Positions 8,046-50,290 of a DNA stretch of 53,249 nt are shown here, one piece after another. Made by a program: the position numbers and the translations under genes. The notes under the pieces were generated by a model, which did no database searches, was not told the DNA's origin, and saw only the letters and a list, made by a program, of their open reading frames with translations. The stretch spans positions 1-53,249 of IMG/VR virus record IMGVR_UViG_3300031957_002446; one strand, given 5' to 3'. The first letter of the stretch is position 1. The number at the start of each line of letters is the position of its first letter. This DNA is from a virus.

Positions 8046-8048
8046 GAC

Positions 8049-8070: not shown

Positions 8071-8078
8071 GGAGTATT

Positions 8079-8405: not shown

Positions 8406-8432
8406 AAAAAAAAAGGAGTCCTTTCGGACTCC
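8406..8432 (-). terminator. Strong terminator after gp23
   Basis: Minus strand GGAGTCC-GAAA-GGACTCC followed by nine T. Closes the head-gene transcript about 30 bases after the gp23 stop. Confidence 0.93.
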
Positions 8433-8461
8433 CTAATAAATGACCCGCAGAGCGGCAAGAA

Positions 8462-9880: not shown

Positions 9881-9924
9881 TTTAGGTGTGAGTGTTTAAG
9901 GTTTTACAAATTGTTTTTCAGAAG

Positions 9925-25501: not shown

Positions 25502-25521
25502 TGCTATTAGTCGGCCTAGGA

Positions 25522-31700: not shown

Positions 31701-33251
31701 AGTTATAAAAGTTCCAGAAGTTTGATGAACTTCTACAATATTCAATCCCGAAATAGCCTCAGTTATGTATCCGCTAGCACCACTGCTTAGACCTTTAATA
31801 TAACTTCCTTTTGGAATGGTGGTAGATTCACTAATTGTAAGTTTGGTATATGTTTGAATATCAAATAACCTCAAATCCCAAGAAGTTGTTTGGTCCGAAT
31901 ATGGAGCATCAGTAAGAGTGAATGAAAATACTCTGGCTTCTCCGATCTTATCTCCGGTTCCAGATGTTGTACTGTTACTTCTTTGATTGAATAATTCAAC
32001 CACATAAGTTGAATCACGATTCAATCCAATTGCTGGAACGCCAAAAACATTATTAACTCTTAATAACGAGCCAAAAGATAGAGGAACTCTTACAGCTTCT
32101 ACACTTGCAGTTGTTCTTGCCTTGTTGGCATCAATAATAGTATATTTTGATATGTCAATGTCATATCCTTTCACATATGCTTTACCAGGACCGATTGTAA
32201 GGGCAGCCAGATCGTCTGTAGGAGTGTTTCCACTTGAGGTAGTCTGATCTGATCCATAAAGTCCCTGATTTCCTTGTTCGTCGTTTAGAGACTCGCTGAA
32301 CGTAAGTGAGAATGGAGTTACAGTATAGTCTCCAGACTCTTCAAAAGTTCTTTTTGCTAGATAATCTTTGAAAATATTATATTGTGGTTTTGGTTCTGCG
32401 ATATCAGGAATTCCTTCCTCAGATCGCATGATCTCTACGAAATTTACATCGTCCAGATCATCTAAAGATTTTTTGTCAAGAATTAAATCAAACTTGAATC
32501 TATCTGCACCAGGAGCTGAAAAGTTTGTAAATCCCTTTGCGTTATCAAAGAGATCATTGTCTTCATTAGCATTAACAGTGCTTTCAGAAATTGTTAAACC
32601 AATTCTATAAGATGGTTCATTTGAATATTGATCTAGAATGATAGTTTGCTTTAAAACCCTCGCAAAAAATCCTCTAACAAAATAGACACCATCATCAACA
32701 GAGACTGCTGAACCAATTGCAGTTGCCTCAAAGTTAATGCATTGAGCAAAAGATGATCCAGGAACAATTGTAGTGTTTCCATAAACTACAGTATCTTCAG
32801 CTAGAAGAAGTTCTCCATCAACAAAAGAATCAAAAGTTCCATCAGAACCAGAATTTAAGTATTTTACATATAACGTTAAGTTTCCAGTATCAGATTCCTC
32901 AGAAGTAATTACATTAACTACGTTTGCGGTAATTTGACTAGTTTGACCTCTAATTGAAGTTCCAATAAAATTATCGATATATGTCTCTACATCAATGCCA
33001 AGAAAAGTAGTATTAATTTTTACGGCATAATATTGAGTATCAATTGAAACCCCGCCAGGTATGACTATAGATCCATCTTTAAAAAAGTGATCGCCAAAAG
33101 ATTCAATCTGATTTTGGAAAACAGATTGTAGATTGTTTAGTTCCCTCGCCTGGACTGGAAATCCGGGCTTAAACAGAACCCTGTAAAAATTATCATCCTC
33201 GCTATAATCGTCGTAATAGGGAGTAATGTTTAGGTTTGTTCTTTGTGCCAT
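25722..33251 (-). CDS. DUF4815 giant baseplate/fibre protein, 2509 aa
   Basis: The N-terminus (TPYYDDYSEDDNFYRVLFKP, then GFPVQARELNNLQSVFQNQI and FFKDGSIVIPGG) is the DUF4815 domain of T4-like cyanophage structural proteins. The long middle is beta-rich. Residues about 1630-1690 are Asn/Ile/Thr/Val repeats (NRTINNITQNITRV) resembling a trimeric shaft, ending in ten consecutive arginines (1692-1701), then DPLAQSFLTDSQGGFITSVD, a conserved block. A GxGY repeat pair lies near 1935-2000. It occupies the slot of T4 gp9-gp12, suggesting a wedge-linked fibre or adhesin. No Shine-Dalgarno is visible 4 bases after gp8. Confidence 0.88.
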   Translation of the reverse strand: MAQRTNLNITPYYDDYSEDDNFYRVLFKPGFPVQARELNNLQSVFQNQIESFGDHFFKDGSIVIPGGVSIDTQYYAVKINTTFLGIDVETYIDNFIGTSIRGQTSQITANVVNVITSEESDTGNLTLYVKYLNSGSDGTFDSFVDGELLLAEDTVVYGNTTIVPGSSFAQCINFEATAIGSAVSVDDGVYFVRGFFARVLKQTIILDQYSNEPSYRIGLTISESTVNANEDNDLFDNAKGFTNFSAPGADRFKFDLILDKKSLDDLDDVNFVEIMRSEEGIPDIAEPKPQYNIFKDYLAKRTFEESGDYTVTPFSLTFSESLNDEQGNQGLYGSDQTTSSGNTPTDDLAALTIGPGKAYVKGYDIDISKYTIIDANKARTTASVEAVRVPLSFGSLLRVNNVFGVPAIGLNRDSTYVVELFNQRSNSTTSGTGDKIGEARVFSFTLTDAPYSDQTTSWDLRLFDIQTYTKLTISESTTIPKGSYIKGLSSGASGYITEAISGLNIVEVHQTSGTFITGERFSINGNYEVPRSIKQITVYTLDDVHSVYQDASSLGLQSDFVADSVLRERLAPEFNAIHQVNVSTGSGGISTITSGGEKFTGIATNSIVAYNNVIDQYADRVYNRVVSVADDGNSIEVEAVPNVIGVATGLLPVSASGSVAVNFRIGVSEFQFGEDGGSLIAPLVNQNVANIALNSSNLPILNQVTGRTSDAFGQIAFNSSATGITSSFFEEFNQQRYTIAYSDGTIEDLTADQVSINSDGTVVTITGAKPNETNINVTVTVNKKDLRSKLKVHTRSTKVTVNKSTQRSAGVSTNVNNGLDYNDFYGLRVQDDQISLNYADVSRVIAVYESIDSNPPILDKLTFEAGLELNTASILGEYISGPNNKALAQVVTRLSATEIEVVYLNDDRFDIGEELQFQESGIFGILQSIRSGVFVDRTDDYRLDKGQKPDIYDYSRIVRSPGVGIPTKQLLVIFNHYTVESSDDGDVFTVDSYDAERFKLDIPEIQILGKFVRASDCLDFRPRVAPFSGTTSSPFDYDSRDFSAAGGSTTLIPKPNESAIVSYDYFLPRTDRLILTSEGQFQLVEGTPSNTNVQVPQIVKDSMTLAVIEYPAYVYDVNDIRIIQVDNKRYTMRDIGSLEDRIQNLEETTSLSLLESETRNLQVQDADGLTRFKSGFFADDFKNSNLLNSASTCIVDPGENTVICNQDRNTLSPQIVPFEQKIAADFDFGEDYALLDANLRKTGTAITLNYDEVEYLQQPFATRTENVNPFNIIEWIGSIRLNPPSDQWTTNLTDANNRVIERFRTINTGRTLTNTNVTQGRSFQGVGGGEASRLVTNQPTRSTSTVTTTDRAITNISGSIDIDETQDRFIRSRNVEFKAEGLKPFTRYYPFMDDSNRIDVIPKYLEIENVSGSFRPGEIVDGEASVRDPRTRGTRYINFRICVPNHKSGNFLFPDTFLDANPYDRNIDFGDTDSYNASSTLLNIDTEALAVSAQGSFNGRVFVGMKLTGRTSNAQATVKDVRLVTDSFGSLAGCLWFRSPNTVNQGFLFRTGTRTFKLTSSSSNAEALPGSLDISDAEVNYTARGTTRRVTLNLTATALTTTRNDTTTTITNNVEFRAARIPAPRIINNNFIERRITQLQPIVNVDNRTINNITQNITRVTRNVTQNITNINRTTVVRPVVREVRRERVIVRRRRRRRRRRDPLAQSFLTDSQGGFITSVDIYMATKDLRAPLTVELRTMELGVPTTTLVAEEAQVILSPIDVNTSTDASVATRVTFPAPIFVEPRTEYALVLLAPTSDKYTAWVARLGERAVAGGSGSDNALYTRQYGAGALFKSQNGSIWEASSFEDMKFIINRAQFVAESGVLTLQNPDLSFDSGILPLLPTNPIKSLPRKLSVGITTAETADMQNILSFGRKVGQGNTVTGFIENVGGPIAALNISITGTGYSTGTYSGVNFYTVGGNGSGATGVVTVSSAGEISQVSIASSGTGFIVGESLGITTSDVFKGTDAVISVGAITGYDTLYTTNVNGQEFVTDEELIYYNDSNNPISLGSTLITSSSVYDQLYSGNVIEVLHPRHAMHSINNVLEIKDVKPNTSPTSLTAAVLNTDNTISVADTTTFATFQGISTSQGYVIVNNEVMYYDSIGAGQLGISTRGAENTTAARHSNGDLVYPYEFANVSLAKINKQHNMPSSNVLQSAKKMDSYYLEISRGDRPTGPNQLNFNDEIIAGGNSVWISRNIQFDQITTNLDIITPGETSVGGRIRTITGTSAGGVEPSFQDTAFQPTSLNTTIIYPSPRMVASKVNESNQPTITALPRSKSLTIEVDMIGDDSGGRFSPVVFSDQISVDLDRTRLNRPINDYINDPRTGEIEGDPHTSFYVSQKIDLKNPASSIRVLTSAYVDQTAEIRCFYRVFSSDAQFVEPQFVPFPGYNNLRDTDADGFGDQVIDSTKSSGLPDRIVPSSLQDEFREYQFSVDNLQPFDSYQIKIVFNGTNEALAPRLNDIRTIALA
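28149..28178 (-). repeat. Ten-arginine tract (AGA/AGG-rich) in the DUF4815 protein
   Basis: Ten Arg codons in a row (nine AGA/AGG, one CGT), giving a purine run with two AGGAGA-like Shine-Dalgarno matches inside the coding sequence. It precedes the conserved DPLAQSF block. Confidence 0.95.
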
Positions 33252-33255
33252 TGAT

Positions 33256-34818
33256 TCAGAATTCCAATACTACTTTGATGTCTTCTTTTTGGCGGGAGTT
33301 GCGATTAACGCTTGGGCGATTATCTAGATAAATTATTTCGCCTGACCTCTTATTTATTTGAGATTCAGCAATTCCATTTGTAAAATTAACCCCCAAGTTA
33401 ATAGTGGCTGTATCTGTTGATGTGGTTATTCCTGTAAAATTCACGTCAACTGAAGCAGAAAATCCTCCAGCAGAAGTGATGAGTTCTGCAGAAGATTCAA
33501 ATTTAACAACCGTAGCTTCTGATGTGATCCCAATGTAATCTTTTTGATCTGCAGTTGATTTGTTGAAGTAAAGAGATCTATCTTGAATGTACTTAATAAC
33601 GTTTGTTTCTTCATCAAATGAAGCAACATATGCTACAGCAGTTGTTGTTCCTACAACTTGCTTGATTTGATCTCCAACTATCAGAGATCCAGTAACACCA
33701 GTAACTTTAATCGCATCCATAGCGTTAAAGTCATTTGATGAGAAAAGATCTGTTGATCCAATAGATGTTGGATTCTTCAAAATTCCAACTTGTGCAAAAA
33801 CAGTATCTGTTGGGAAATTTCTAGTAGAATCATCAAATCTTGCATAAAGTAAAACTTTTTCCGCTCCAAGTTCTTTATAAAGATCATAACCATGACCCTT
33901 CGATGGTGGAATAATCGGAACTAATTTTGCAAACTCTGTTAAAGATCCACTTTGAATTGGGCCTAAATCCACAATTCCATAACTATATCCTTTTCCACCC
34001 TCAGATACCTGAGCTTTTGTAATTCTTCCGCTACTATCTGTAGAAATTACTGCCTTTCCACCAGTACCATCCCCAAGAATATCGACCTCAGAGTCAAGTC
34101 CAAGACCATATCCGAATCCTTGTCTTTCAACACTAATGTGCTTTAATTGATTTTCATTAATCTCAGAATTGCCATTTTCTCTTACTGCAACAATCTGGGG
34201 ATCGTTAGAAGTTGACCAGTTTGTTGGAAGAGTAATGTACTCCGTAGAGTCAAATTTAATAATATCTGATGGATTGACAGTAAATAAGTATTTCCAAATG
34301 TAACCATCTCCAGATTCACCAGCTCTAGCTGGTTCCAAGTCAGTAAATTTTGGTTCATCCTGGGATGCATTTCCAGTAGAATTGGTTGCACTAGAACCAT
34401 TCTCAATACAAATATAAACCCTAAAATCAGAATTTAAAACATAATATCTAGAATCATACAATCTAGCTGAACTTGTTACCGGAGACAAATTCAATACACT
34501 ATAGTCATGACGATATTTTTCATATGTTGTTCCCTGCTTCCATTCAACTTTGCGAATAACTCTACGAACGTTTGCCGTAGTAATTTTTCTACCAAATAAC
34601 ATCGTGTCATAGACATGATTTTGGTAGTTAAAATTGTCAATTGGTGATGGTTGACCAATCGTGTTGGTATTCCAATCTGCAGTTCTACCATATCCAATCG
34701 CAAGAGTTGGATTAGGTAATGATGTAAAGATATAATATGAATTATCAGTATTTTCTACGGACCTTACAAAGTTATCAACATTCAATAACCTAAACTGGTC
34801 CGTTAACAGTGCAGCCAT
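33256..34818 (-). CDS. 8: Baseplate wedge protein gp8, enlarged
   Basis: Wedge component that binds gp7, gp6 and gp10 in T4. The ends match gp8: TSLPNPTLAIGYGRTADWNT, VRRVIRKVEWKQGT, ESGDGYIWKYLFTVNPSD near 165-185, and a C-terminal SGEIIYLDNRPSVNR followed by DIKVVLEF. T4 gp8 has 334 residues, this one 520; the extra part includes GFGYGLGLDSEVDILGDGTG and GGKGYSYGIVDLG, the same GxGY module as gp14. A CATAAATA late motif lies 27 bases upstream. Confidence 0.92.
   Translation of the reverse strand: MAALLTDQFRLLNVDNFVRSVENTDNSYYIFTSLPNPTLAIGYGRTADWNTNTIGQPSPIDNFNYQNHVYDTMLFGRKITTANVRRVIRKVEWKQGTTYEKYRHDYSVLNLSPVTSSARLYDSRYYVLNSDFRVYICIENGSSATNSTGNASQDEPKFTDLEPARAGESGDGYIWKYLFTVNPSDIIKFDSTEYITLPTNWSTSNDPQIVAVRENGNSEINENQLKHISVERQGFGYGLGLDSEVDILGDGTGGKAVISTDSSGRITKAQVSEGGKGYSYGIVDLGPIQSGSLTEFAKLVPIIPPSKGHGYDLYKELGAEKVLLYARFDDSTRNFPTDTVFAQVGILKNPTSIGSTDLFSSNDFNAMDAIKVTGVTGSLIVGDQIKQVVGTTTAVAYVASFDEETNVIKYIQDRSLYFNKSTADQKDYIGITSEATVVKFESSAELITSAGGFSASVDVNFTGITTSTDTATINLGVNFTNGIAESQINKRSGEIIYLDNRPSVNRNSRQKEDIKVVLEF
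33351..33358 (-). promoter_or_regulatory. Possible late-promoter motif AATAAATA inside gp8
   Basis: Minus-strand CAAATAAATAAG about 100 bases before the DUF4815 start, inside gp8. Could give that giant gene its own late message, but such octamers also occur by chance in AT-rich coding DNA. Confidence 0.35.
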
Positions 34819-34853: not shown

Positions 34854-37800
34854 TTACAGGAAGACCTTTTTAGCGAGATTGCCACTTCTTCTTAAACCAA
34901 CACCACCAGATCTCACAATTGTTGGGAATGTTGTGAGACCAACGTCCACAGTATTTCCAGCAACAGATAGTGAAATTGGATTCAAAACTTGTCTCTTAAA
35001 TCCACCAATCAGACCCCAAGAGAACTTACCAACTCCAGTAGAAGAAGTTGCAGCCAATCCAACAATATCAGTATCGGATTTAATGTTGCAAGTAATTTCT
35101 CCAGTTCCGGTTAATTCAAAACTAAAGTCATTTACATGATAAACGTTGTTAAGGAACTGTGTTCCAATTCCAATCACATCAGTATCATTAGCGTTTACTG
35201 ATGTAACTCCTGTTCCAATAGTGGTATCCTTAACAAAGATCTTATAATCTGGTTTTAAAGTTCCAAATAAAGTTGTCTCAGTAGATCCAATCAAATCAAC
35301 GTACAATTTCAATGCTAGTGGATGTCCACCAGTTCCTGTAGTTGTTCCAATTCCAGTAATAATTCCACTATAACCAATAATAACATCACAACTTTCTAAT
35401 TTTTCACTATCAACAGTTGGAATTTCTACCATAACGTTAGGAACCCTTGTGCTGGTATATCCAAATCCAGGATCCACAATTCCAATTGCAGTTAGAGAAC
35501 CACCAGCCGCAGTTCCTGTTAAAATAGCAGTTGTACCGACTCCTACAAGTCCATAAGTCACATCATCCACTTTTGGTGGATTGGCAATTGAAAGACTTAC
35601 AGTTCCATCAGTATATCCAGATCCACCACTTACAATTGTTGCAGTTGAAATTGTTCCAGTGGCAGAAACCGTAACCGTAACAGCAGCTGATACTGGATCA
35701 TTGTATTTAACTACCAAACAATCAGGAACTACTTCCTCAACGTTGGACCCATCAGCATCCTCTTCATATTGGAAGAATTCTGCATCATCAACAAATATAA
35801 AATCTTCACTAGTTGAGAAATCTCCAATAACTTTTGCATTAGGTTTGATTTGAGACTGTAAAGAATCTCTAATTTTATATTGGAAGTCTTCTTGTAAGAT
35901 AAGATCTCTCTTTTGAGGTAATAGTGTAATTGGACGGAAAAGCGCATCATCAATACCAAGACCTCTGTAAATGTTTGTCTCTACTTGCTCAGAATCTTCA
36001 ATTCCAAATATAATTCTTTCTGATTGTGTAGCAACATTATTCGGATCTAGTTTTTCCAGAATTAGTTTATCTCCTGGTTTGACAACTTCATCAACTTGAA
36101 CCAAAACGCTGTCAACACCTCTTTGTCCTCTAAAGAAATAGATTTTGATGTCATCATTGGGTTGTGGAGCAGAAGTAAAGTTAAAATTGAAACTAGTACC
36201 ACCCTCAAAGAAATAATCTTTCTTGGGTTGTTGAATTACTCCATTTACAAAGATGAGAAGAACTGAGTCCAAATCAACAAGAATAGATTGTTCATCATCA
36301 GTATTTTTTTGGAAACTTAGTAGAGATCCATTTAGAGCCAATGGGAATCTTGTTCTTACACCATTTTGTAGACTTCTGATACTATCAATGTAGTCTACTT
36401 GACCAAAATTCCAAGATGAGAAGGAATCATCAAATACCTGTAGAACTTCAAAAATAACATCCTCATATGCAGTTCCGGCATATCCAGGATTATTTGAGGG
36501 AACTCTGTAAGGATTACTTGGGAATGCTCCGGTCACAATTCCAACTGGTTTGAATTGGTCTCCAACTTTAAATCCAAATCCTCTGCTTTGTAAGGAGAAG
36601 TTTTCAGCGATAAAGAATTCTGTTCCTATTCCAGTTGTCTTAGCAGCTCCTGCTTTGATATCTACTAATAGACCTTGACCAGTTTGAGTAGTAGAACCAA
36701 TTCCAGTTCTAAACACTCCTTCAATAGGTAGATTTCCATATGAAGGGGTACTTACGTTGACTGTTGGTGAAGTGTAACCTGTTCCAGGATTAGTGATATC
36801 AAATTTCAAACGACCTCCAGTAAACTTACCTCCTTGAGCTTCACCAACATTGATAGTAATAGTATCTGTTGTAGTAGCAGAAATATCCAAATCAGTATTG
36901 TAAGCAGGATCAGGAAGTCCTCTACCACCAACTTCGCGTGGATAGCAATCAATTTTAGTGTTATTGTCCTGTAAGCAAGAGAAGCAAATAGATTCGGTGG
37001 CAAGTCCTACTTGATCTACACCTGCAGTTAGAGAATGTCCTGCAATGGTAAGAGTAAGATCACCTGTTACGGGGTCATATGTGCCGTCTGTGGGCGTATA
37101 GGGACCACCAGTTCCAGTAACTGCGTCAGTAGCAGCACTTTCAAATCTATGCTCATTAAATGGAATAGTTGCATCAACAACAGCGACAGTTCCCTCATGG
37201 CCATCTTCTTCTAAGGATACACTAGCAGTGTTGAAATATCCTTGTCCAAAGTTTAATCCATCATAATATCTGGCAACTGTGCCATCACTTACATAAGTGT
37301 GGGCAAACCCAACTATTCCAACATTAACACTAAATTGTGTATTAGAAATTACGGTATCTACTGAATATGGGCCGGTGTTCTTAACGCCATAAACTTCACC
37401 GCCAGTGTCGTATGTATGGTCAATAGTTGAGATGCCAACATTTACAGTAAGTTGATTGGCGGCAGGAACATCAATGACAAAATACTTGGTTCCTTGAGTT
37501 CCATCTGGGAAGATAGTTGTTGTCACACCTGCATGTGGAGCAGCGCATGTAAATTCAATGTTACTCAGGTTGACCTGATCAAATTTCGCAATGTTATGAT
37601 CTACACTTGTGGTAATCGTAGATAGACCCGTGGTCTTATCATATTCAAAGTTGCTAATGTTGTAGATAATACCACGTTCATCTGGGAATACTGTTGTTGT
37701 GATTGATCCACCAGCTGGACATTCAAAGACAATATTTTCAAATTGTGCAAACCATCCAGATTGTAAATTGTGGTTAGTGGATGTAGTTACAGTAGCAACA

Positions 37801-40800
37801 CCAGTTTGATGTGTATAATCAAATCCTGTAATATTAACTAATGGGCCAGTTGTATCGACTCCAATAATATCAACGATGGTTCCTCCGGCACCAACTTCCG
37901 CAATTACTTTTGCGGGAACTAGAGGTGCAATTCCTCTACCACCAGAGAATCCGATGGATATAATTCTTCCCCCAGTTGGCAATTCATTTGCAACTGGATC
38001 AGTTTCGGAAACAAAAAGTTCTCCACTAATTAGTTTGTTTCCAGAGAACTTATACTGAACTTCATCAGTCACTGGATCAACTTCAATAGAATATACATTT
38101 AAAGGATTGTTTTGCGTTGTTTGTCCTTGATATAACCCATTAATGAATACAATACCAGAACCACTAGCCGCTGTCTCAAGTCCAACGGGTTGCTGTCCAC
38201 CAACAGTTACATTAAAAGTCTGTCCTAAACCAGTAAATGATGGAGAAACATCATCATAAATTTCATTCAATGCATAATCTTGTCTCAAATATGTTCTTCC
38301 AGAGAAAGAAGATCTAGTAACAGGAAGATTTCTATCATCTAAAACAAATCCAGCACCAGCACCCGTTGGTGCTTCGGTAAAGAATATTGAATTTTCTTCA
38401 ATATTATAAGCACCTTTGTGGACAATTGCGAGTTCACCATCACTATAACTTGATGCAGAAGTTCCAACATAAGCTCTTTGGACTTGTGCTACATTAAAAG
38501 ATCCAATTCCAGTTATAGGTCCAAAAGTGCTAGTTGCAATACCAACCGCAACTACTTGCATAAATTCTTCACCAATTTTCAAAATATCTTGAGAATTAAT
38601 GGTTGCAATACCAGAGAGAGCAAAATATGTTCTTGATGCTCCAATATTTTCCTGAAGATTATATTCAATTGATGTTCTACTAATTGGATTTTGTACTACT
38701 CCATCAATTGTGATGATAGTCTTAGTCAATTTCTTAGTAGTATCCAACAAGTGGAAATTTCCAAGACCACGACTAGTGACTTCTAGTCCAATTCCAGAAA
38801 TAGCAAAATCTTTTTTAGTCGCTAACCTAATATTATCATTATCAACCCTAATAGCATATACACTATCTGGAATAATGTCGGTGGTAACGCCAGTTCTATA
38901 CACTTGTTGAGCTGTAGTCGCTGTAGAGACCAAAGACATTGAAACTGCTAGTCCAACTCTATCAACAAAATAGGTTGACCCTACTCCAACGGGAACGTTG
39001 TTATCAACAACAATAGAATTAATTCCAATTGCAGTGATAGTTCCAAATCCTGTATTAGTATCTAAATCAGTTACAGTATCTCCAAGTTGTAAGAGTGTGT
39101 GGTTTCCAATTCCATTAATTAGAGTAGTTCCAAAAGAATTTCCATTAAAGAAAATATATGTGGTTCCGATGCTAACCACTGTAGCCGCAGCTTGAACTCC
39201 TTGACCTTCTATTTCCTGACCAATTACAATATCTACAGTTGTACTAACTCCAGAAATTACTTTATCACCAGCTCTTACGTCACCTTCAAATGATCCACCT
39301 CCAGCAAGAGTGGTTCCAATTCCAATCTTAGAAGAGGATAGGCCGGAAATATTTGTCCCTTCAGAATATCTCAATTCTTGACCACTTTGTAAGAAATGGC
39401 TAGGAATTGTTATTCTTCCATCTGATAGTCTAAAGACAGATGGATTTCCAGGATCAAATCTATGTGCGTAAATTGGGAATCCTTCATGAAGAAGTTCAAA
39501 TTCGAGTTGGTCTGCTGGTTGATAAATTCCTTGAACAACTCTTTCCAATACCGTACCAAAAGCAAAATCATCTATTAGAGTAGAATTAGTGTCTTGATCG
39601 CTATAAAGAATTTCAGAATACTGCTCAATTCTTGCAGTAGCTCCAACATATGCAGCATCTGGAATAAATTCTAGATATGCATACTTATCCTGATATCTTC
39701 CAGTGAATGTACCAATGCCAGTAGAGGTATTAACACCAATTTGAGGATATTCGAGGGTGAAACTTTCAACTAATCCTGGATCTTGTGCAAAAACCACAGA
39801 AGTCATAACTTGAGTTTCGCCAACTCCAATTCTAACAACAGATTTGGCAACTCTGTCTGCTAAGGTAGTGAGACCAACAATACTAACGCCAGCCCCAGTT
39901 AACACTTCATCAAAAGTGTTTGATTCGAGTCTGGCAGTCCTCTCAGTCATGTCATCCTGAGTGCTTAATCTGAATGAAACAGATCCAATACCTGCTCCTC
40001 CTGTACCAAATCCTACAGTTCTAGATTTAATGGTAACAGTTCCGGTTCCTCCATTAGTGAAGTCTAGTGAGAATTTATCTTTCCCATCAGTATCTGTAAA
40101 AACAGAAGATCCAAAAGTACCAATTGGTTGATATGATAGTGCCTGCTCAGAACTATCAAAACCATATTGTCCTAGGTATGTTTCTGAGATTCCGTCATGA
40201 AGTAATGATATTTCTGCAAATTGCTTTTGGCCTGTAGTTTCATTCAACATTTCAACAGTTGAATACGAACCATTATATTCTGTGATGCCGAAAGAAACTA
40301 AAGAAGTAACTACACCTGCGGAAATCTGATCAGAATTTCCAACAAGTAAGTTGTCTTGAAGTATTCTTGAACCAGTACCATCTGTTCTAGAATCGAATAG
40401 TGATCTAAACGCCTTAATATCGTAAGCTTTTAACGGATTTGTTGGTGTAAATCGCATTGAAATTGCACCACTTATCTCATCATAGACGGCTTCAATTTCA
40501 CCAAGAGATTCTAATTCATCATCTTCTACAGCAACAGATCCATTACTCTTAACTCTTATACGCTCAACGTTGAAGGTATTTCCTGAATTGTCATTACTAA
40601 CAACTAACTCAACAATCTCAAAATGAGTTCTATCTTCCCTAGAAGTAATAACAATGAAAAATCTATTGAAACCAACTGATGATGGATATATCAAGAAATC
40701 TGTAAATTTATTCTCTAAATTGTCACTATCTGCAAAGTCTTTGCTGATATCATCATGAATCAAAACCCTATTAGTTACACACTCGATAAATGTCGTTAAT

Positions 40801-43800
40801 TTTTTATTTCCAAATTTGATTGAATTTGTAACTTTAGGGGAATTTGTCACAACGTCAGTATCAACTGCGAAGTCAAAAAATCTTTGAGCATAGACTGGTA
40901 ATTCTTCAATAATATCAACAACAATAGAAGATTCTGCAGCTGCTGTTGTCCCGATACCAACATCAACGTTATTAAGTATACTTGTATCAACAAAGTTTTT
41001 GGTTCCACTGATATGAACCATACGATTCATAGGATCTACAAGATCTTCCCATTCAACTTCTGTTTTAACAGCATAAGCTAATTTTTGATAATAGTCATTG
41101 TCGGGAATTACTTGAGTATCATCATTTAAAAATCCTTTAAAGTTAGACCAACCAAAGTTTTGTTGAACTCCAGAATCAACCTCATAAAAACCATCGAAAC
41201 TAATAATTTTTTTAATAGTTGCTTTAGTTCCAGAAACTTTACCTAAGACTACATCACCAACTTGCAGTTCATAATCTCCCAGAGTCTTAAGAATTCCATT
41301 TTCTGTCGTTTTAGTTACAAATAGATCTGTTTCTACATTGCCAACACTAGTGACTAGTAGAAGTCTTTCATTATTAGTGAATATGTCAGATTTTAAGTTG
41401 ACTTTGAATAATGGATATTTGTCTCTTTTTACAACACTTCCAAAATTAACTACTGTTTTTGCAATGCCTGGATTAGTAGTAAATCCAGTCAGATCAAAAG
41501 TAATTTGAGCTGGATTGACTCCACCGTTAAAGTTTTGTACTTTGAAAAATTCAAATCTATAATTTGCAGAGTTGAATCCATCACCATCGCTATTTCCCTC
41601 TGGATCGGTGTATTTTTCGATGCCATCAACGTACACTTCATCACCAGCGTTTAGTGGATTTGTTGCAAATCCAATCAAAGGAGTTACAATTTTAACAGTA
41701 AGAACGCCAGTATTTACACTATCTGCCTCAATAATTGTTAATCCATTACTATTGTCTGAGCTGTAAATACTATGTGCAACACCTGCTAATCCAGATGGAG
41801 CTTTAATAATCTCCACATCATCAATAGATCCTCCACCCTCATTAAGAACAGCCAATAACTCTGCATCATTAATAACCTCTGCAGTTACAGAGTTTACTAG
41901 TTGTAATTTTGGCGTACCAACAAAACTAGTTCCACCAAATACAATATCTACGCTTTCAACAGTATTGAAATTCTCCAAATCATAATAAGTTGGAATATCT
42001 GCAACTGGTTGTAGCGTTTTATCCTGAGAGAATTCAAATCCTGGTTTTTCAATTCTAAAAGAATTTAATTTTCCAATTTCATCGGATGTTACAGACAATT
42101 CGGCATTAACTCCTTGCGAAGTAGTAATTGTGGAAATGCCAGGAGTCTTTTCGTAATTAAATCCTTTGTTTAAAATTTTAATCTTATTAATACCACCAAG
42201 ACCTGTTTTGGATCTGGTAGTGTAGCTCAACTTATCGCAAGATGAAGGAGTATACTCATCTTGCTCGGGAGTTTCAAAAAGTGCTACCAAGAAAGAAGTT
42301 GTAGCTACTCCAACCACAACCGTATTAATATGATACTTACTATCAACGTATAAAATTCTTGAATGATTGGTAATATATTGATCTGGTTCAATTAAAATAT
42401 TATTGGCAGTATCAAGCAAATTGTAATAAATTTGCTCGGGAATATTTTCATTAAACTCTATAGTAATACTTTCAGTTCCACCTGCACCTACTGTCCCAAC
42501 TCCAGAAACTTCAAATGATGTTGATTTTCCTGTTCCCACAAGTTCATTTCTGAAATTTTGATCAAAGAAGAATTTTAATTCATATCCAGAAAGAGAGGTA
42601 TCAGAAACATCAAAAACAAGATTGTTGTTTCTAACTACTTGAATTTCTGGGTTAATAATTGACAAACTTTGACCAGAACCACCTGTAGTTCCTAATCCAA
42701 TTGTTCTTGGATTATTTCCTATAACATCAATGTAGGTTTCTCCTAATTGAATTTTATCCTTATCAACTACAAAGACAAAATATTCTGTCTTGTCTACTGG
42801 ATTTTCTAGAGGATCTGGATTATTGGGCCCTTTATAGTAAAGTTTATCGCCAGTTTCAAGTCCATGATCGACTAAAGTGATTTCACTAGTCTGTGCATTA
42901 ACTGCATCGGATCCAAATCCAATTGGATCGAATAAAATTTTACGGATATCTTCATCAAAGATAACACTGATAGAAGAAGCAGATCCAACGCCACGAGAAA
43001 GATTTGTTTCAATATCTATTTTTAAAGAGTCATTTAAAGTTAACTGATGAGTTTGTGCAGTAGAAACTCTAGCTGATAATCTATCAACTTTACCAATTAT
43101 TTGCTCTTTATTTGGAATACTCTCAATAAAATATTCAAAACTTTCACTATCAACCGTCTTATATAAAGTTGGATTGGCATTGAATATCAAAATATCACTA
43201 TTAAGAGTAGTTTTGATACCAATCGTATTCTTTCCTCTGTTTGAAATGAATACTTCTTGACTTATTCCATCCTCTGGGAAAGCGAATGTTGAAGCAGAAG
43301 ATACTGTTGATACACCAAGAACATTTGCTCCGCTAGGAACACCAAATTTTACTCTTTGATTGTTTTTAAATGGATGGTCTTCAATATAAATTGATTGAAT
43401 AGGAATACTTCTGTTTGAAGTAATACCTAAAACTTCATATTGAATAGATACATGCCCACCAGAAGTTGTTCCAAAACCAACAGATTCATTCGGATTGAAA
43501 TACACCTTATCATTTGGTGATGAATTGAAATTTTCTCCATCAACATCTATGTAAAAATCTGATGGTTTTGCAGTTACTGCAGCCCCAGCCAAATGTCCAT
43601 CGGTACTAATTCCTCTAACAGCTCTTAATACCGAATTATAAGGACTATAGTTATTTGATGGTCCATAGACGTTCAATACCTTTAAAGTTTCACCTTCAAT
43701 AGTAATTTCAGTATCTGGTCTTACATATTTTGGAATAGGCGATATTTTAATATCGGTTTTCATTCCACCAACTGATTCAGCTGGCATAGATTCTTGAATT

Positions 43801-46800
43801 CCAAATCTCTCATCAAATACAGAGATTTTTTTGAATCCAGTAATTTGTGGGAAATATGTAGATAAACCACTGATTTTTACTACTGTTCCATCTTCTAATG
43901 AGTGGAATGTGCCAATTGTGGCTCTAACTTGATTTGGATTTGCTCTAGAGAATACAAAAGTGGAGAATCCAATAGTTTCGTTTGAAATTCTATCAATTTT
44001 TTGTCCAAAAATTTCACTTACCTCTGCAGCCGCACTAGAACCAGTAGTTTCTTCATTATTGAATATAATAGTATCACCAACTTGATAGTTAGTACCTGAG
44101 TTCAAAATTTCAATTTCATCAATTCCACCAACTTTGGTATTATTGACAATTGTTCTTTGTGAAGTGAGTTTATATGGTTCAACATAGAAATCATATCCAC
44201 CACCCTCTTCAGATACAACGTATGGAAATGTATTTCTGAGCAAATCGCTCGAATTAAAGTCAAAATCCTGGCTTAAAGTCTCACTACTTCCAATCAAATT
44301 TTCTCTGATTACGGAAGACTTATACGAATCTCCAATTACATACGGGAAAACAGATTCTAATTCTCCCGTTCCTGCATTAAAATTATTGACTGTAAAGTAT
44401 GCATAAACTCCATTTGGATAATCTGGAGTTTTGCAGAATCTTCCATTATGAATATCTAAATTTCCAGCATCGGTAAATTTGTAATCCTCTATAAAAAATC
44501 CATCTGGGAATCCCGTTGGTCTTTGAATTACCGAATCAGAATCAACTTCATATCCAGAAACAAGTCTGATAACATCGGAACCACCATCGTTGGGATCTTC
44601 ATATCCTTTTGAGCCATAAATGGGATTTCCGTCATATGCCCACCCAATCAAAGGAGAATGTGCAGTATCTTCAATGTCATTAAATTCTACGATTAGGCTA
44701 CTATTAATACCAACAACTCCATATTGGAAACCAACATCATCTCCACGATTTAGCAATACTTCACTATCATCATCATCAAATTTTGCTCTTTGATTGATTG
44801 TTAAATCTCTAATACTACTTTTTAATATAGCACCAGATCCTTGAGAAGTTACTTTAATTGTGGTGCTGTCAAAATTGTAATTTTGACCTCTACGAATAAC
44901 AATAATATCAATTACCTTTCCAGCTCCATTAATAACTGGACGTAGAATTGCTCCTGTCCCGGTTGGACTAACAGCCTCTACAATTGGTAAAGAATAATAT
45001 TCTTCACCTTCATTTGTCACATTAACATCTCTAATTTCTCCATCGACAATTACGGGAACAAATTCTGCACCCTTTCCATTTAATACCGTTACGGATGGAT
45101 TCTTTTCAAAATTCAAAACAGTGGTTCCATAAGGACCACCTTTTTCATATAGGAGAACATCTTGAATTGGGCCAGTTATTACTGGAGTTGCTGTAATTAC
45201 TCCAACAGTATTTGCAATGGTTACATTCACCTCAACTTGAACTTCTGGATAGTTGAAAATGTGGAAACCTGTACCAACTCCTGTAAAGTTTTCAATAGAT
45301 CCTCGTTCAAATAAGGTTAGAGTAGTTCCACCAACTCCAGCATTAGTAATTCTGAAATTATTATTATCAATTTTAGTAACTACAAATTGTGCTGTTGTTT
45401 GAATTCCAACAATAGGATCACCATCATACTCATATGTAATTAACTCTCCAGTCGAATATCCATGATTAGTAAATGAAAGTGTATTTGTAAATGTAGATAC
45501 ACCTAAGGTGCTAATAGCAATTTTTCTAGTAGAATATCCTGATCCAGGATTGAGTACATTGACTCCTGTAATTTTTTTAGTTGGATTGAGTAACCTAAAC
45601 GTTTGTTGACCAGCACTTTCACTGCCTGTGCTAAATCCAACAGTATTGATACCCGCATTGTAATCTTGAAGATTTTCATATAATCTAATAGAATTGCTTG
45701 TTACAATTTCAGTATAATAAACTGTTCCCGTTTCTAAAAATCTACCAGTAAGAGTAGTAAGACCAAATCCAGTAATTGATGGGGATTTGTTTCCATTTGG
45801 AACATATACTACAGCTGTACCATCTCCCAAATTGTGATTCTTTATGGTTGTAATGGTATCGGTAAGCCAGTTGATTCCTCCACCAATGTCAAATAAAGAT
45901 GCGTTAAAATCAATCTCTCTAAACTCATCTTCTACAATTGGTTCTACAAGTGCTCCTACACCATTTCCACCTTTAACATCAATTCCTGAAACAGAATTTA
46001 ATCCAAACTCTTGTGGATCAATGTAAATATTTTTTAAAGATCCTGTTATCGCTGGATAAGCAAGAGCTGTTGTTCCAGAATCAGGAGAAACAACTTTAAG
46101 TAAAGGTGGATTTGTTACACTATACTCTTTGCCACCGTTCAATACGGAAATTTGATTTAACGGGCCGTAATAGACTTTATCGTCAGTTTTATAGTTTACA
46201 ACTTCAACTCCATTGATCAAAATTCCGATTGTTCCTGGAACTGTTGAAACATTATCTTCTACATCTAAAGATTTTGAAACTGGAATTCTTCTAAAAACTT
46301 TTTGTGGAGCAATTTTTTTGTTATATTGCTCCGCAAGAGTGAAATCATGACTGCCTGTATTTCCATCTTCAGGCTCATCAAATTGTAAATTTTCCCCTGT
46401 GACAATAAAAGATCTTGCAGCATATAGTTTTACTTTGTTTGCAGGACTTAAGACTTCAACATAATAAGTTGTTCCGTATACCAAACCACTAATAGGATCT
46501 GCAGAAGTTCCAGCAGAATATACTACAGCATCTCCAGTTATAAATTGAACTACATCTGGAAATGACAGAACATTGTACTTTTGAGTTGTTGCATCAAAAT
46601 CCTGTAAAGCAGCCGAAACTACAGTTGCCTCATCAATTGTTGATTTGATAATATCGACTTCTATATTGTATGAAGGCAAAGAATTTGATGCAACATAAAG
46701 ATTCTCATCTTTCTTGTCAACGTAAGTATTGAGAATATCTGAGATTACTACATTATTACCATTTTCAATACTATTTCCAATACTAACTGCTTTCTTAACT

Positions 46801-48377
46801 TTCCGTCTAATATCATAACCAATTCCAGCAACTAAACTGGAAACTCCGCTTCCAGATAAAATTACTTGATTGACACCAGAAACAGTTACACTTGCAGATT
46901 CTACTAAAATTTCTCCATCAGCTCTGTTCAGAACTTCAACTGTATCTCCATCTCTAAGATATGCTTTATCTACATCGATTTCTAAAGTAAATGTGGATCC
47001 AAAAAAGGTCTTAACTTTAATTCTTGATGCTGTGTTATACTGCCAAGAATTAGCTAAGATTTGTAAATCTGTTTTATTTGAAGATGGGTCTTTAACCTTA
47101 CGACCAAGGCTCTTGACTTGATATACCTCGTTTAAATCTGAGTAAAAAATATCAGAATTTGGTAAAAAGTCTGATATTACTCCAGTAATGCGAAGTTCTA
47201 CTCTCTCTCCGGTATTTGGATTAGTCGAGTATGCAATATCGTTGGTTCTAACAGCAGTATTAGCTAAAATTGTACTGTCAATACCGGAGCACCCTAAAAA
47301 CTGATTAATCGTTTTATCAGTATACGTTACTGTCTGGTTTCCTACGACAAGAGTTCCAGATTTTGCAAAACCAATAGTAGTGTCTACGGAGAGAACCTTA
47401 GAACCAGCACTAATTTCTTCAATAGTTTTTGTATATGGGGTGATTGAAAACTTTCCGTCAAATCCTGGTGCTGGATCTGAAAATCTACTGAATAAGAATA
47501 AATTATAGAGTTGTCCATCTGCAGAAATAGACGAAAACTCAACTTCAGAAATTGGAGCAGAGGCACCTACGATCTCAAGATTTTGTGTATTTTGATCTTG
47601 AATTAATGTTTGTCCAGATAATGTTAAAGGATCTCCAGAAATTGCCTCTGCCGTAAGAAAAAGTCTATTTCTATAATTTGCAATTGATGGCTCAACTAGA
47701 GCATCAGTTTGATTCTTTATAGTAGATCTTTTTCCGAAAAGTACGGAAGTTAAGATGTTGAAAGAATCTTGTGTTCCTTTTGAATTATAAAAACTTCTTA
47801 ACCCTTTAATAAAATTATTGATGTCTACGTCACTTTCAAAAGATTCATCCTCAAATCCAGGAGCATATGAAATTTTTAGTTTCCTGAAAAATTCTTTGAG
47901 GAATAGGTTACTTAAATTAGTTACACTAACCCCGGTGGAATGAGAGGCAGCTAATGTGGAACTAAAAACTACCTCTCCTTCGATATAATTTTCAATTCCA
48001 CTAAAACCTCTAACACAACCAATGATACTATTATCAGTTGCCTCAGTGTAATAGATTATTTCACTATCAATCTTTACAATACCATTATTTCTTGGATATC
48101 CTCTTGTATTTGAAAGGGATATCGTCGTATCCGTGGCAGACACATCTGCCGACAGTGTTACAGATCCTGATACAATATCATTTGTATAGGAATCTAATTT
48201 TAAATATTCTACTAGTCCGTCAACAAGATCTACAGAAGATCCACGATTTTCTTGACCAAGATAATACTGCTTGAGAAAATCAATACTTTTTGGGTTTTCT
48301 ATCCTGAGATACTCAGGTAACTGATTAGCTAAGATATTTTGAATCTTAACTCTCTGGTTCAGTCCGGTTTCAATCAT
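34854..48377 (-). CDS. Giant virion protein at the gp7 position, 4507 aa
   Basis: A single intact frame of 13.5 kb, one quarter of the window, between gp6 and gp8, exactly where T4 has gp7 (1032 residues). Residues 1-250 are mixed alpha/beta (RVKIQNILANQLPEYLRIEN, FLKEFFRKLKISYAPGFEDE, FIKGLRSFYNSKGTQDSF) and may bind the wedge; the rest is beta-rich with many repeats of two kinds: GxGY units (e.g. near 35430-35640 and 44060-46150) and units with an NHxLxxG core (37000-45900), often followed by a YYV strand and TxxxFRL. Late in the protein are YFFEGGTSFNFNF and DDIKIYFFRGQRGVDSVLV blocks. Probably a wedge-anchored fibre-like structure. ATGA overlap with gp6. Confidence 0.88.
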   Translation of the reverse strand: MIETGLNQRVKIQNILANQLPEYLRIENPKSIDFLKQYYLGQENRGSSVDLVDGLVEYLKLDSYTNDIVSGSVTLSADVSATDTTISLSNTRGYPRNNGIVKIDSEIIYYTEATDNSIIGCVRGFSGIENYIEGEVVFSSTLAASHSTGVSVTNLSNLFLKEFFRKLKISYAPGFEDESFESDVDINNFIKGLRSFYNSKGTQDSFNILTSVLFGKRSTIKNQTDALVEPSIANYRNRLFLTAEAISGDPLTLSGQTLIQDQNTQNLEIVGASAPISEVEFSSISADGQLYNLFLFSRFSDPAPGFDGKFSITPYTKTIEEISAGSKVLSVDTTIGFAKSGTLVVGNQTVTYTDKTINQFLGCSGIDSTILANTAVRTNDIAYSTNPNTGERVELRITGVISDFLPNSDIFYSDLNEVYQVKSLGRKVKDPSSNKTDLQILANSWQYNTASRIKVKTFFGSTFTLEIDVDKAYLRDGDTVEVLNRADGEILVESASVTVSGVNQVILSGSGVSSLVAGIGYDIRRKVKKAVSIGNSIENGNNVVISDILNTYVDKKDENLYVASNSLPSYNIEVDIIKSTIDEATVVSAALQDFDATTQKYNVLSFPDVVQFITGDAVVYSAGTSADPISGLVYGTTYYVEVLSPANKVKLYAARSFIVTGENLQFDEPEDGNTGSHDFTLAEQYNKKIAPQKVFRRIPVSKSLDVEDNVSTVPGTIGILINGVEVVNYKTDDKVYYGPLNQISVLNGGKEYSVTNPPLLKVVSPDSGTTALAYPAITGSLKNIYIDPQEFGLNSVSGIDVKGGNGVGALVEPIVEDEFREIDFNASLFDIGGGINWLTDTITTIKNHNLGDGTAVVYVPNGNKSPSITGFGLTTLTGRFLETGTVYYTEIVTSNSIRLYENLQDYNAGINTVGFSTGSESAGQQTFRLLNPTKKITGVNVLNPGSGYSTRKIAISTLGVSTFTNTLSFTNHGYSTGELITYEYDGDPIVGIQTTAQFVVTKIDNNNFRITNAGVGGTTLTLFERGSIENFTGVGTGFHIFNYPEVQVEVNVTIANTVGVITATPVITGPIQDVLLYEKGGPYGTTVLNFEKNPSVTVLNGKGAEFVPVIVDGEIRDVNVTNEGEEYYSLPIVEAVSPTGTGAILRPVINGAGKVIDIIVIRRGQNYNFDSTTIKVTSQGSGAILKSSIRDLTINQRAKFDDDDSEVLLNRGDDVGFQYGVVGINSSLIVEFNDIEDTAHSPLIGWAYDGNPIYGSKGYEDPNDGGSDVIRLVSGYEVDSDSVIQRPTGFPDGFFIEDYKFTDAGNLDIHNGRFCKTPDYPNGVYAYFTVNNFNAGTGELESVFPYVIGDSYKSSVIRENLIGSSETLSQDFDFNSSDLLRNTFPYVVSEEGGGYDFYVEPYKLTSQRTIVNNTKVGGIDEIEILNSGTNYQVGDTIIFNNEETTGSSAAAEVSEIFGQKIDRISNETIGFSTFVFSRANPNQVRATIGTFHSLEDGTVVKISGLSTYFPQITGFKKISVFDERFGIQESMPAESVGGMKTDIKISPIPKYVRPDTEITIEGETLKVLNVYGPSNNYSPYNSVLRAVRGISTDGHLAGAAVTAKPSDFYIDVDGENFNSSPNDKVYFNPNESVGFGTTSGGHVSIQYEVLGITSNRSIPIQSIYIEDHPFKNNQRVKFGVPSGANVLGVSTVSSASTFAFPEDGISQEVFISNRGKNTIGIKTTLNSDILIFNANPTLYKTVDSESFEYFIESIPNKEQIIGKVDRLSARVSTAQTHQLTLNDSLKIDIETNLSRGVGSASSISVIFDEDIRKILFDPIGFGSDAVNAQTSEITLVDHGLETGDKLYYKGPNNPDPLENPVDKTEYFVFVVDKDKIQLGETYIDVIGNNPRTIGLGTTGGSGQSLSIINPEIQVVRNNNLVFDVSDTSLSGYELKFFFDQNFRNELVGTGKSTSFEVSGVGTVGAGGTESITIEFNENIPEQIYYNLLDTANNILIEPDQYITNHSRILYVDSKYHINTVVVGVATTSFLVALFETPEQDEYTPSSCDKLSYTTRSKTGLGGINKIKILNKGFNYEKTPGISTITTSQGVNAELSVTSDEIGKLNSFRIEKPGFEFSQDKTLQPVADIPTYYDLENFNTVESVDIVFGGTSFVGTPKLQLVNSVTAEVINDAELLAVLNEGGGSIDDVEIIKAPSGLAGVAHSIYSSDNSNGLTIIEADSVNTGVLTVKIVTPLIGFATNPLNAGDEVYVDGIEKYTDPEGNSDGDGFNSANYRFEFFKVQNFNGGVNPAQITFDLTGFTTNPGIAKTVVNFGSVVKRDKYPLFKVNLKSDIFTNNERLLLVTSVGNVETDLFVTKTTENGILKTLGDYELQVGDVVLGKVSGTKATIKKIISFDGFYEVDSGVQQNFGWSNFKGFLNDDTQVIPDNDYYQKLAYAVKTEVEWEDLVDPMNRMVHISGTKNFVDTSILNNVDVGIGTTAAAESSIVVDIIEELPVYAQRFFDFAVDTDVVTNSPKVTNSIKFGNKKLTTFIECVTNRVLIHDDISKDFADSDNLENKFTDFLIYPSSVGFNRFFIVITSREDRTHFEIVELVVSNDNSGNTFNVERIRVKSNGSVAVEDDELESLGEIEAVYDEISGAISMRFTPTNPLKAYDIKAFRSLFDSRTDGTGSRILQDNLLVGNSDQISAGVVTSLVSFGITEYNGSYSTVEMLNETTGQKQFAEISLLHDGISETYLGQYGFDSSEQALSYQPIGTFGSSVFTDTDGKDKFSLDFTNGGTGTVTIKSRTVGFGTGGAGIGSVSFRLSTQDDMTERTARLESNTFDEVLTGAGVSIVGLTTLADRVAKSVVRIGVGETQVMTSVVFAQDPGLVESFTLEYPQIGVNTSTGIGTFTGRYQDKYAYLEFIPDAAYVGATARIEQYSEILYSDQDTNSTLIDDFAFGTVLERVVQGIYQPADQLEFELLHEGFPIYAHRFDPGNPSVFRLSDGRITIPSHFLQSGQELRYSEGTNISGLSSSKIGIGTTLAGGGSFEGDVRAGDKVISGVSTTVDIVIGQEIEGQGVQAAATVVSIGTTYIFFNGNSFGTTLINGIGNHTLLQLGDTVTDLDTNTGFGTITAIGINSIVVDNNVPVGVGSTYFVDRVGLAVSMSLVSTATTAQQVYRTGVTTDIIPDSVYAIRVDNDNIRLATKKDFAISGIGLEVTSRGLGNFHLLDTTKKLTKTIITIDGVVQNPISRTSIEYNLQENIGASRTYFALSGIATINSQDILKIGEEFMQVVAVGIATSTFGPITGIGSFNVAQVQRAYVGTSASSYSDGELAIVHKGAYNIEENSIFFTEAPTGAGAGFVLDDRNLPVTRSSFSGRTYLRQDYALNEIYDDVSPSFTGLGQTFNVTVGGQQPVGLETAASGSGIVFINGLYQGQTTQNNPLNVYSIEVDPVTDEVQYKFSGNKLISGELFVSETDPVANELPTGGRIISIGFSGGRGIAPLVPAKVIAEVGAGGTIVDIIGVDTTGPLVNITGFDYTHQTGVATVTTSTNHNLQSGWFAQFENIVFECPAGGSITTTVFPDERGIIYNISNFEYDKTTGLSTITTSVDHNIAKFDQVNLSNIEFTCAAPHAGVTTTIFPDGTQGTKYFVIDVPAANQLTVNVGISTIDHTYDTGGEVYGVKNTGPYSVDTVISNTQFSVNVGIVGFAHTYVSDGTVARYYDGLNFGQGYFNTASVSLEEDGHEGTVAVVDATIPFNEHRFESAATDAVTGTGGPYTPTDGTYDPVTGDLTLTIAGHSLTAGVDQVGLATESICFSCLQDNNTKIDCYPREVGGRGLPDPAYNTDLDISATTTDTITINVGEAQGGKFTGGRLKFDITNPGTGYTSPTVNVSTPSYGNLPIEGVFRTGIGSTTQTGQGLLVDIKAGAAKTTGIGTEFFIAENFSLQSRGFGFKVGDQFKPVGIVTGAFPSNPYRVPSNNPGYAGTAYEDVIFEVLQVFDDSFSSWNFGQVDYIDSIRSLQNGVRTRFPLALNGSLLSFQKNTDDEQSILVDLDSVLLIFVNGVIQQPKKDYFFEGGTSFNFNFTSAPQPNDDIKIYFFRGQRGVDSVLVQVDEVVKPGDKLILEKLDPNNVATQSERIIFGIEDSEQVETNIYRGLGIDDALFRPITLLPQKRDLILQEDFQYKIRDSLQSQIKPNAKVIGDFSTSEDFIFVDDAEFFQYEEDADGSNVEEVVPDCLVVKYNDPVSAAVTVTVSATGTISTATIVSGGSGYTDGTVSLSIANPPKVDDVTYGLVGVGTTAILTGTAAGGSLTAIGIVDPGFGYTSTRVPNVMVEIPTVDSEKLESCDVIIGYSGIITGIGTTTGTGGHPLALKLYVDLIGSTETTLFGTLKPDYKIFVKDTTIGTGVTSVNANDTDVIGIGTQFLNNVYHVNDFSFELTGTGEITCNIKSDTDIVGLAATSSTGVGKFSWGLIGGFKRQVLNPISLSVAGNTVDVGLTTFPTIVRSGGVGLRRSGNLAKKVFL

Positions 48378-50290
48378 TGTATTCTAATATAACTCCCGTT
48401 GGAATAACTTGAAGTGACTGGGAAACCAACTCCCGATATTTCTTCACCAGAACTAATAGTGTCCTTAAGCATATTTATTGTGCTTCTGTCAGATGCTAAT
48501 GCGATGTAGATATTCTTTAACCCAATTACATCATTACTTTCTGGATACATTTGAACTTCAACCAATCCTCCAACGACATCTGTGGAAATAATTTTTGTAG
48601 TGTACAAAATTACTTCGCCTTTAATGTAATCAACGCTTCCAGCTTCTTTAACAACAGTAATCGCTTTGTTATTTGAATCTAATTTGATAAAGGAAATTAT
48701 TCCCTTTTTCTTATCTGCATTTGGAGTATCTGTCAAATATAAGGTATCTGGATTTCCAAAAATTTTAAATCCAGTAGATTTTATATTTCTATCATTTTCT
48801 ACATGAATTTCATTTCCATAACAAATCTCATATTGTGCGGATTTGTTTAAACTAATCTTCAAATCCCTTCTTGCTGTAACTCTAGTGATGTTTGAAGTAA
48901 TTGCTGTACTTGTATTATCAATTTTTTGTAGAAGTTTGCTATATTTAAATCTTCCACCAAAATTATTCAGTTCTGAGCTATCTCCAAATGCTTTGATGTT
49001 GTCAGATACCTGAGTTTTGAGAGCTTCAATATCATTCACTTTGCTGGAATTATAATAAACATATGAATCTAGTTCTAGGTACAGAATTTCTAAATCTACA
49101 ATTTTCTGCTTAATTCCTGCAAGAGAATATCTCTTTAGGCGATTAGTTATAAATTCTTTGTTAAAATCGGAAACAAAGAAGTCATTTTTGGGTTTAATAC
49201 TAATAATAACTTCTCCAAATTTTGGAGGATTCAACTCTTCTCCCCCAGTGACAGAAACTGAGTCTGCTGCAGGGTAGATTGTTTTTACTAATGCCTCATA
49301 ATCACTAGCCGTAACCGCTCTGTACTGTGATGAATATAGTTTTGGAGCAAAGTATTTGATAGACTGCAAATCTTCGATCTCAGTGCCTCCTGACGCCTTC
49401 TCTGCAGTTGATACAGTGATAGTTGCAGTTGGAGTGATATCTGCATTCAAAGAATCTTTTAGAATTCCAGAAAATGAGAATAATGAAACGCCATTTGATT
49501 CTGGGCCATCAGTAACAATGTATGTTGCATCAATTTCCGAGTTTGTCTCTAATTTTTTGCCTAGAATTCCATCTCCAAACAATAATTCGTATTTTTCATC
49601 TTTTACTTCTTGTAAAAAGTAAACTTCTGAGTTTTTATCGATGTTTAATATGTTATCAATCAGTGTATATTCAATTCCAGCGGTAGGATCATTTGGAGAT
49701 TTGATTTTTGTGATTAATGTTTCTGTGTCAATAAACGCATTTGGTAAAATAAATCTTTGATCTAGGGATTGATCGACAATAAATGACTTTTTAACGAAAG
49801 AACCCTGATAAATTGAGATATTTTCAAAGGTAGCTGTTCTATCACCAACCAATAATCCGATTCCTGGGTTGTCGAGTGGAGAAACAGTGGTAATATCTTC
49901 GGGAATTGAGAAAATATATGCGGAATTTGCCTCTCTACCAACGCAAACTAGTCCGGCTTTCAGCGTTACGGTCGAACTACTGCCGTAAAACTTAACTGAG
50001 AAGGAAATTTTTGCTCTGGCCGACCTTCTAGAGCGCGGAACATACCCAATATTACGCGCAAGAGAGACAACATTCTCTCTTAACGTCGCAGATTCGATAA
50101 AACTCTCATTTACTGCTAAATTTGAATTAAATGCCGTAATATATGTGTTATATGCAAGCGTATCAATCAAGACTGAGAAGTTAGATCCTTCAAAATCAAA
50201 GTCTGTGAACGTAGAATTCGCCCTCAGATAGTCTTTAATTTGTGTTTTGATCTGGTTAAAGTCCAGATTAGCGTAATTTGTGAACGGCAT
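48374..50290 (-). CDS. 6: Baseplate wedge protein gp6
   Basis: Forms the inner iris of the baseplate. The 638-residue protein (660 in T4) has NQIKTQIKDYLRANSTFTDF, SNFSVLIDTLAYNTYITAFN and NVVSLARNIGYVPRSRRSAR at the N-terminus, LFGDGILGKKLE near 235 and YRAVTASDYEALVKTIYPAA near 330, typical of gp6/J-type baseplate proteins. Start overlaps the gp25 stop as TAATG; stop overlaps the giant gene as ATGA. Complete. Confidence 0.96.
   Translation of the reverse strand: MPFTNYANLDFNQIKTQIKDYLRANSTFTDFDFEGSNFSVLIDTLAYNTYITAFNSNLAVNESFIESATLRENVVSLARNIGYVPRSRRSARAKISFSVKFYGSSSTVTLKAGLVCVGREANSAYIFSIPEDITTVSPLDNPGIGLLVGDRTATFENISIYQGSFVKKSFIVDQSLDQRFILPNAFIDTETLITKIKSPNDPTAGIEYTLIDNILNIDKNSEVYFLQEVKDEKYELLFGDGILGKKLETNSEIDATYIVTDGPESNGVSLFSFSGILKDSLNADITPTATITVSTAEKASGGTEIEDLQSIKYFAPKLYSSQYRAVTASDYEALVKTIYPAADSVSVTGGEELNPPKFGEVIISIKPKNDFFVSDFNKEFITNRLKRYSLAGIKQKIVDLEILYLELDSYVYYNSSKVNDIEALKTQVSDNIKAFGDSSELNNFGGRFKYSKLLQKIDNTSTAITSNITRVTARRDLKISLNKSAQYEICYGNEIHVENDRNIKSTGFKIFGNPDTLYLTDTPNADKKKGIISFIKLDSNNKAITVVKEAGSVDYIKGEVILYTTKIISTDVVGGLVEVQMYPESNDVIGLKNIYIALASDRSTINMLKDTISSGEEISGVGFPVTSSYSNGSYIRIQ

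Follow-up and report, generated by a model that had tools for sequence, protein, structure and literature searches.

In T4, the gene for the baseplate wedge protein gp7 (1032 aa) lies between those for gp6 and gp8, and its product carries the helical core in the C-terminal third of the chain (~645-765, with core helices at ~724-758, followed by domain V), behind an N-terminal extension of ~640 residues. A minimal form is provided by XM1 gp17, a gp7 homologue of 242 aa in which residues 1-48 form the core-bundle helices and in which the spikes are held by a loop at 80-106 together with the C-terminal residues 201-242 (PMC10457771). For the cyano- and pelagimyophages, it has been stated that T4 gp7 is absent and is apparently substituted by VrlC; in other members of these groups, a host recognition cluster has been described between VrlC and gp14 (PMC7029224). 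A literature search found no structure of any of the giant proteins that occupy the gp7 slot, proteins that are among the largest of abundant marine phages.

The window analyzed here (53,249 bases, the entire virus contig record of an incomplete genome) derives from a marine cyanophage whose closest isolates are Synechococcus phages S-T4 and Sf-CH8. A wedge operon on its minus strand has the order gp25 - gp6 - giant - gp8 - VrlC, and the remaining genes are mostly T4-type genes for tail, neck, packaging, head, and replication. The operon encodes the gp25 wedge/sheath initiator (50290-50691, 133 aa; phrog_261, PF04965), the wedge protein gp6 (48374-50290, 638 aa; phrog_219, 637 bits, PF21379), and, downstream of the giant gene, the wedge protein gp8 (33256-34818, 520 aa versus 334 in T4; phrog_438, PF09215). 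The first-pass annotation had placed an intact gene of 4507 codons between gp6 and gp8 and given it a quarter of the window, and these points hold: the open reading frame (34854-48377, minus strand) runs from an ATG without a single internal stop and uses 13,524 of the 53,249 bases (25.4%), and its two neighbors are identified by their profiles. The giant gene begins within the final four bases of gp6, giving a 4-base overlap, and a gap of 35 bases separates its end from gp8. The product has a predicted mass of 485.5 kDa and a predicted pI of 4.5. Collinearity with the S-T4 and Sf-CH8 genes along almost the entire length shows that the gene is real and under constraint rather than a chance open frame. 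An assembly artefact was rejected, since isolates carry full-length homologues, as was a frameshift fusion, since gp6 and gp8 are intact on either side. No DNA tandem repeat was found inside the gene.

Sequence comparison indicates that the giant is very probably the cyanophage version of T4 gp7, with the core in its first ~230 residues. When the N-termini of 46 cyanophage proteins were compared by hhalign with seven T4-type gp7 sequences, an E of 8.3e-7 was obtained, with cyanophage residues 193-293 aligned to gp7 columns 736-822; in the same comparison, eight other T4 tail proteins, eight column-shuffled alignments, and a reversed alignment gave E values of 0.21-0.80. When T4 gp7 was divided into pieces, only 640-765 was significant (E 4.9e-8), the match lying in the helix with the motif SKGTxxSFxxL, and T4 gp7 730-758 matches phrog_2885 at 196-224 (E 1.3e-4). 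A bridge is furnished by phiN3 gp7, whose core is likewise N-terminal and which matches both the cyanophage profile (E 3.3e-11) and T4-type gp7 (E 1.5e-6, columns 647-847). Within the giant, residues 155-230 (47688-47915) contain the helices with the SKGTxxSFxxL motif that are homologous to T4 gp7 ~724-758. Residues 1-70 (48168-48377), with predicted helices at 12-19, 22-27, 29-44, and 49-62, are proposed to be the core-bundle helices; they are linked to the core and trifurcation segment of T4 gp7 (~645-765) via the phiN3 bridge only, through an alignment with the N-terminus of phiN3 gp7, itself corresponding to T4 gp7 ~638-720, and their model pLDDT is ~28-40. Between these two helical parts, a small beta domain (residues 71-150, 47928-48167; pLDDT mostly 70-87) is inserted, of the same module type as residues 314-370 (tile profile E 4.7e-8). 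The proposal that the giant is the gp7 equivalent, with an N-terminal wedge-binding part and the rest an extension, is thus upheld: a lack of any similarity to gp7 had been named beforehand as an outcome that would refute it, and the comparison instead gave a profile match with clean controls. By profile, nothing in the giant corresponds to T4 gp7 residues 1-640 or to domain VI (920-1012), the best E values of 0.01-0.05 being short of significance. However, XM1 gp17 is an accepted gp7 homologue even though it is too short to contain these regions, which are consequently probably not defining. When the first 300 residues and the A1 profile were searched against PDB chains, nothing related was retrieved.

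The beta region that follows the core (residues 233-400, 47178-47681) probably corresponds to gp7 domain V, although the homology appears weaker than that of the core. This reading relies on an AlphaFold model of residues 1-480 (mean pLDDT 63.5, with the first 70 residues below 50). When model residues 233-411 were compared with domain V (766-861) in 5hx2, 5iv5, and 9f4a, the structures superimposed in the register predicted by the sequence alignment; by sequence alone, the domain V match is weak (E 0.018). The VIA-align Z scores to gp7 ~760-853 were 8.7, 8.1, and 7.8, values near the background reported for the tool, which unrelated folds also reach; for this reason, the agreement in register was counted and not the score. 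A Foldseek search with the N-terminal model gave no match at E<=0.001, and T4 gp7 was not named among the matches listed.

The giant therefore resembles T4 gp7 in its slot, in its core helices, and probably in domain V, but it is without the ~640-residue N-terminal extension, has instead a C-terminal extension of ~4,100 residues, and shows no match to domain VI. A small core is thus common to both proteins, and the extension has been added at one end of it in T4 and at the other end in the cyanophages. The position of this core at the N-terminus explains how the giants fit into a conserved wedge. In addition, the beta insert at 71-150 and the start of the extension occupy places comparable to the spike-holding sites of XM1 gp17, a correspondence read from the published description and unaligned.

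Most of the giant (residues 401-3899, 36681-47177) consists of an extension with recurring, diverged modules. Whole-protein self-comparisons by BLAST and hhalign detected no repeats, probably owing to the settings used, and profile tiles of 150 residues were employed instead. Among 435 tile pairs, 28 were alike at E<0.01, versus none of 150 shuffled pairs; examples are 71-122/314-364, 957-1012/1823-1880, 3514-3595/3760-3847, and 1411-1501/2055-2141. Thus, the earlier description of the remainder as repeated beta modules applies in part: several module types are interspersed, with no single tandem array, and most of the protein is without a detectable repeat. Modules in the neck protein Hc2/gp14 (22756-24126, minus strand, 456 aa) likewise match phrog_2885 as well as further virion proteins, indicating that the same beta modules recur in several proteins of the tail and neck. 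One portion of the extension (residues 1235-1335, 44373-44675) is a YHYH domain (PF14240, E 4.5e-25, 89.2 bits against a cut-off of 25), although only profile positions 87-186 of 193 are matched; in a three-sequence alignment, the residues just before the match, which starts at profile position 87, read FQYGVVG, with no tetrad there. The chain ends in a conserved region that is predicted to be mostly beta (residues 3900-4507, 34857-36680; model pLDDT 71). A single-sequence scan of viral contigs with this C-terminus found nothing, while an alignment-based scan retrieved 591 related stretches. Neither Foldseek nor VIA-align found a clear relative or a recognisable fold for the C-terminal model (best Z 7.4), and profiles of the C-terminus and of the YHYH region found nothing in the PDB.

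The giant belongs to a known family and is ordinary within it; giant versions of gp7 in cyanophages have been recognized before. Its best stretch against phrog_2885, a family annotated as 'baseplate wedge subunit', aligns residues 2-3026 with profile positions 2-2998 of 4179 (3130 bits), and its first 250 residues, used as a query, retrieve 462 phage records at E<=1e-5. The initial suggestion that a wedge protein of this size sets this phage apart does not survive this comparison, as other cyanophages hold proteins of 1,915-6,619 aa in the slot: 4,749 in S-T4, 4,878 in Sf-CH8, 5,195 in P-SSM2, 3,048 in S-PM2, 1,915 in S-B68, 4,067 in Bellamy, 4,225 in ACG-2014f, 6,619 in S-SZBM1, and 3,274 in Syn1. 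The S-SZBM1 protein (at 3147-10423 of the compared locus) is the longest among the phages compared. Six metagenomic viral contigs containing both gene ends encode 3,949-5,132 aa (from coordinates); outside the cyanophages, the slot protein of Sinorhizobium phage phiN3 has 1,006 aa, a size near that of T4 gp7. The proteins of S-T4 (HOU04_gp197) and Sf-CH8 (SfCH8_62), both annotated as baseplate wedge subunits, share the slot and both termini with the giant and are about 51% identical to it over nearly the full length (S-T4: 51.6% for residues 1-3662 and 57% for 3854-4507); they differ by extra modules near 3600-3900, which account for most of the difference in length. P-SSM2 gp7 (PSSM2_111, annotated gp7), which is collinear with the giant and in the same slot, is longer and shows ~35% identity over residues 2-3028 and 41% at the C-terminus, with greater divergence at ~2550-3150 and 3600-3750. 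The extension is much longer in S-SZBM1_208 and much shorter in ORF122 of S-CREM2 (1937 aa), again in the same slot. In S-T4, gp8 is annotated with 410 aa versus 520 in its relatives, and the 110-residue difference (at 28324-28696 of the compared locus) probably reflects a miscalled start codon.

In relatives, proteins of this slot are part of the virion. Mass spectrometry of CsCl-purified S-SZBM1 particles detected S-SZBM1_208 (724 kDa) with 71 peptides and 13.5% coverage (PMC9146016), and S-CREM2 ORF122, encoded between gp6-like and gp8-like genes, was represented by 91 unique peptides in virions (PMC10665884). The homology of ORF122 is deduced from its slot and from its cluster mate S-B68, whose slot protein matches the N-terminus of the giant, rather than from a direct alignment. 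Absence from virions, which had been named as an outcome that would overturn the gp7 assignment, is thus contradicted within the scope of these two relatives.

Taken together, these results lead to a model in which the giant would be the third chain of a (gp6)2-gp7 wedge. Its N-terminal ~230 residues would form the helical core, bundling with two copies of gp6 and reaching the trifurcation region, and would be followed by the domain V-like beta domain. The ~4,100 residues of beta modules, including the YHYH domain, would then leave the wedge core and form much of the outer baseplate, probably acting with the neighboring large gp8 and VrlC and replacing the N-terminal part of T4 gp7 together with gp9-gp12. 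With six copies per virion, as in T4, the protein would add ~2.9 MDa. The interval from gp8 to the gp13-like gene (24133-24969) contains no more than VrlC and a frame of 111 aa; consequently, there is no gp9-gp12 in the T4 order, but genes for gp9-gp12-like proteins could lie elsewhere in the incomplete genome. The extension probably serves to build the baseplate periphery. The broader idea that one chain per wedge serves as the main outer-baseplate scaffold in place of gp9-gp12 and the T4 gp7 N-terminal part, so that the length of a single gene (~1,900-6,600 residues) sets the size of the cyanomyophage baseplate, is offered only tentatively.

The conservation of the extension bears on whether it might instead be a host-binding fibre, with a receptor-binding arm fused to the wedge anchor. 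The YHYH domain has been counted with those associated with host recognition (PMC7029224), spikes are held by XM1 gp17 at places comparable to the insert and extension of the giant (PMC10457771), and S-SZBM1, in which no long tail fibre was seen by TEM, has the largest gp7-slot protein (PMC9146016). Furthermore, residues ~2550-2850 are less conserved between relatives, and the length varies near 3600-3900. However, apart from the dip at ~2550-2850, S-T4 and Sf-CH8 mostly share 45-61% identity with the giant along its length, up to the C-terminus, and the last 608 residues equal the N-terminus in conservation (median identity 47%, in 50 sequences, versus 46%). There is consequently no variable tip, and no receptor-binding fold appears in the two models (residues 1-480 and the C-terminal region), which cover a small part of the protein. 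The fibre-sized shape originally envisaged is not supported, and the distal part is conserved like the core and unlike a typical variable fibre tip. Conservation of this kind would suit a structural component of the baseplate better than it would a variable tip for receptor binding, and we consider a fibre unlikely, if still worth weighing. The YHYH domain also raises the idea that the extension is an enzyme, a metal-dependent hydrolase acting on the cell envelope, given that a published prediction makes such domains tail-associated zinc hydrolases (PMC7824862) and that the domain is well conserved in the giant. Yet the match is partial and the YHYH tetrad is not found just before it, and the literature searched reports no activity for any YHYH member; a hydrolase thus seems improbable.

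Finally, the published view would have the giant unrelated to gp7 and VrlC in its place (PMC7029224). The window contains both genes, and it is the giant that matches gp7, by profile against clean controls and by fold, while VrlC, over its first 1,490 residues, does not. VrlC itself (25722-33251, minus strand) is a structural protein of 2509 aa with DUF4815 (phrog_358, 1890 bits; PF16075). As a candidate for gp7 it was rejected, since its first 1,490 residues give an E of 0.31 against gp7. In addition, phiN3 carries both a gp7-like protein and VrlC. The absence of gp7 and its replacement by VrlC are therefore not supported, and we regard an unrelated giant as highly improbable. The N-terminal placement of the gp7 core in the giants counters the statement that gp7 is missing, although GenBank and PHROGs already name many such proteins gp7 or wedge subunits, making the correction to the literature a modest one.

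Several other features of the window may be mentioned. The VrlC-type protein has an arginine-rich run, VRRRRRRRRRRD. The window lacks the cluster for host recognition that other cyano- and pelagimyophages are described as carrying between VrlC and gp14 (PMC7029224); the sole frame between VrlC and the gp13-like gene (24970-25721) encodes the 111-aa protein (phrog_3304, tail fibre assembly). At 52679-53113 (minus strand), an anti-restriction (ArdA-like) protein is encoded (phrog_36653, E 5.5e-46), with the Pfam ArdA match below the cut-off. The region of the major capsid gene (8001-10000) has a GC content of 47%, compared with ~36% around it.
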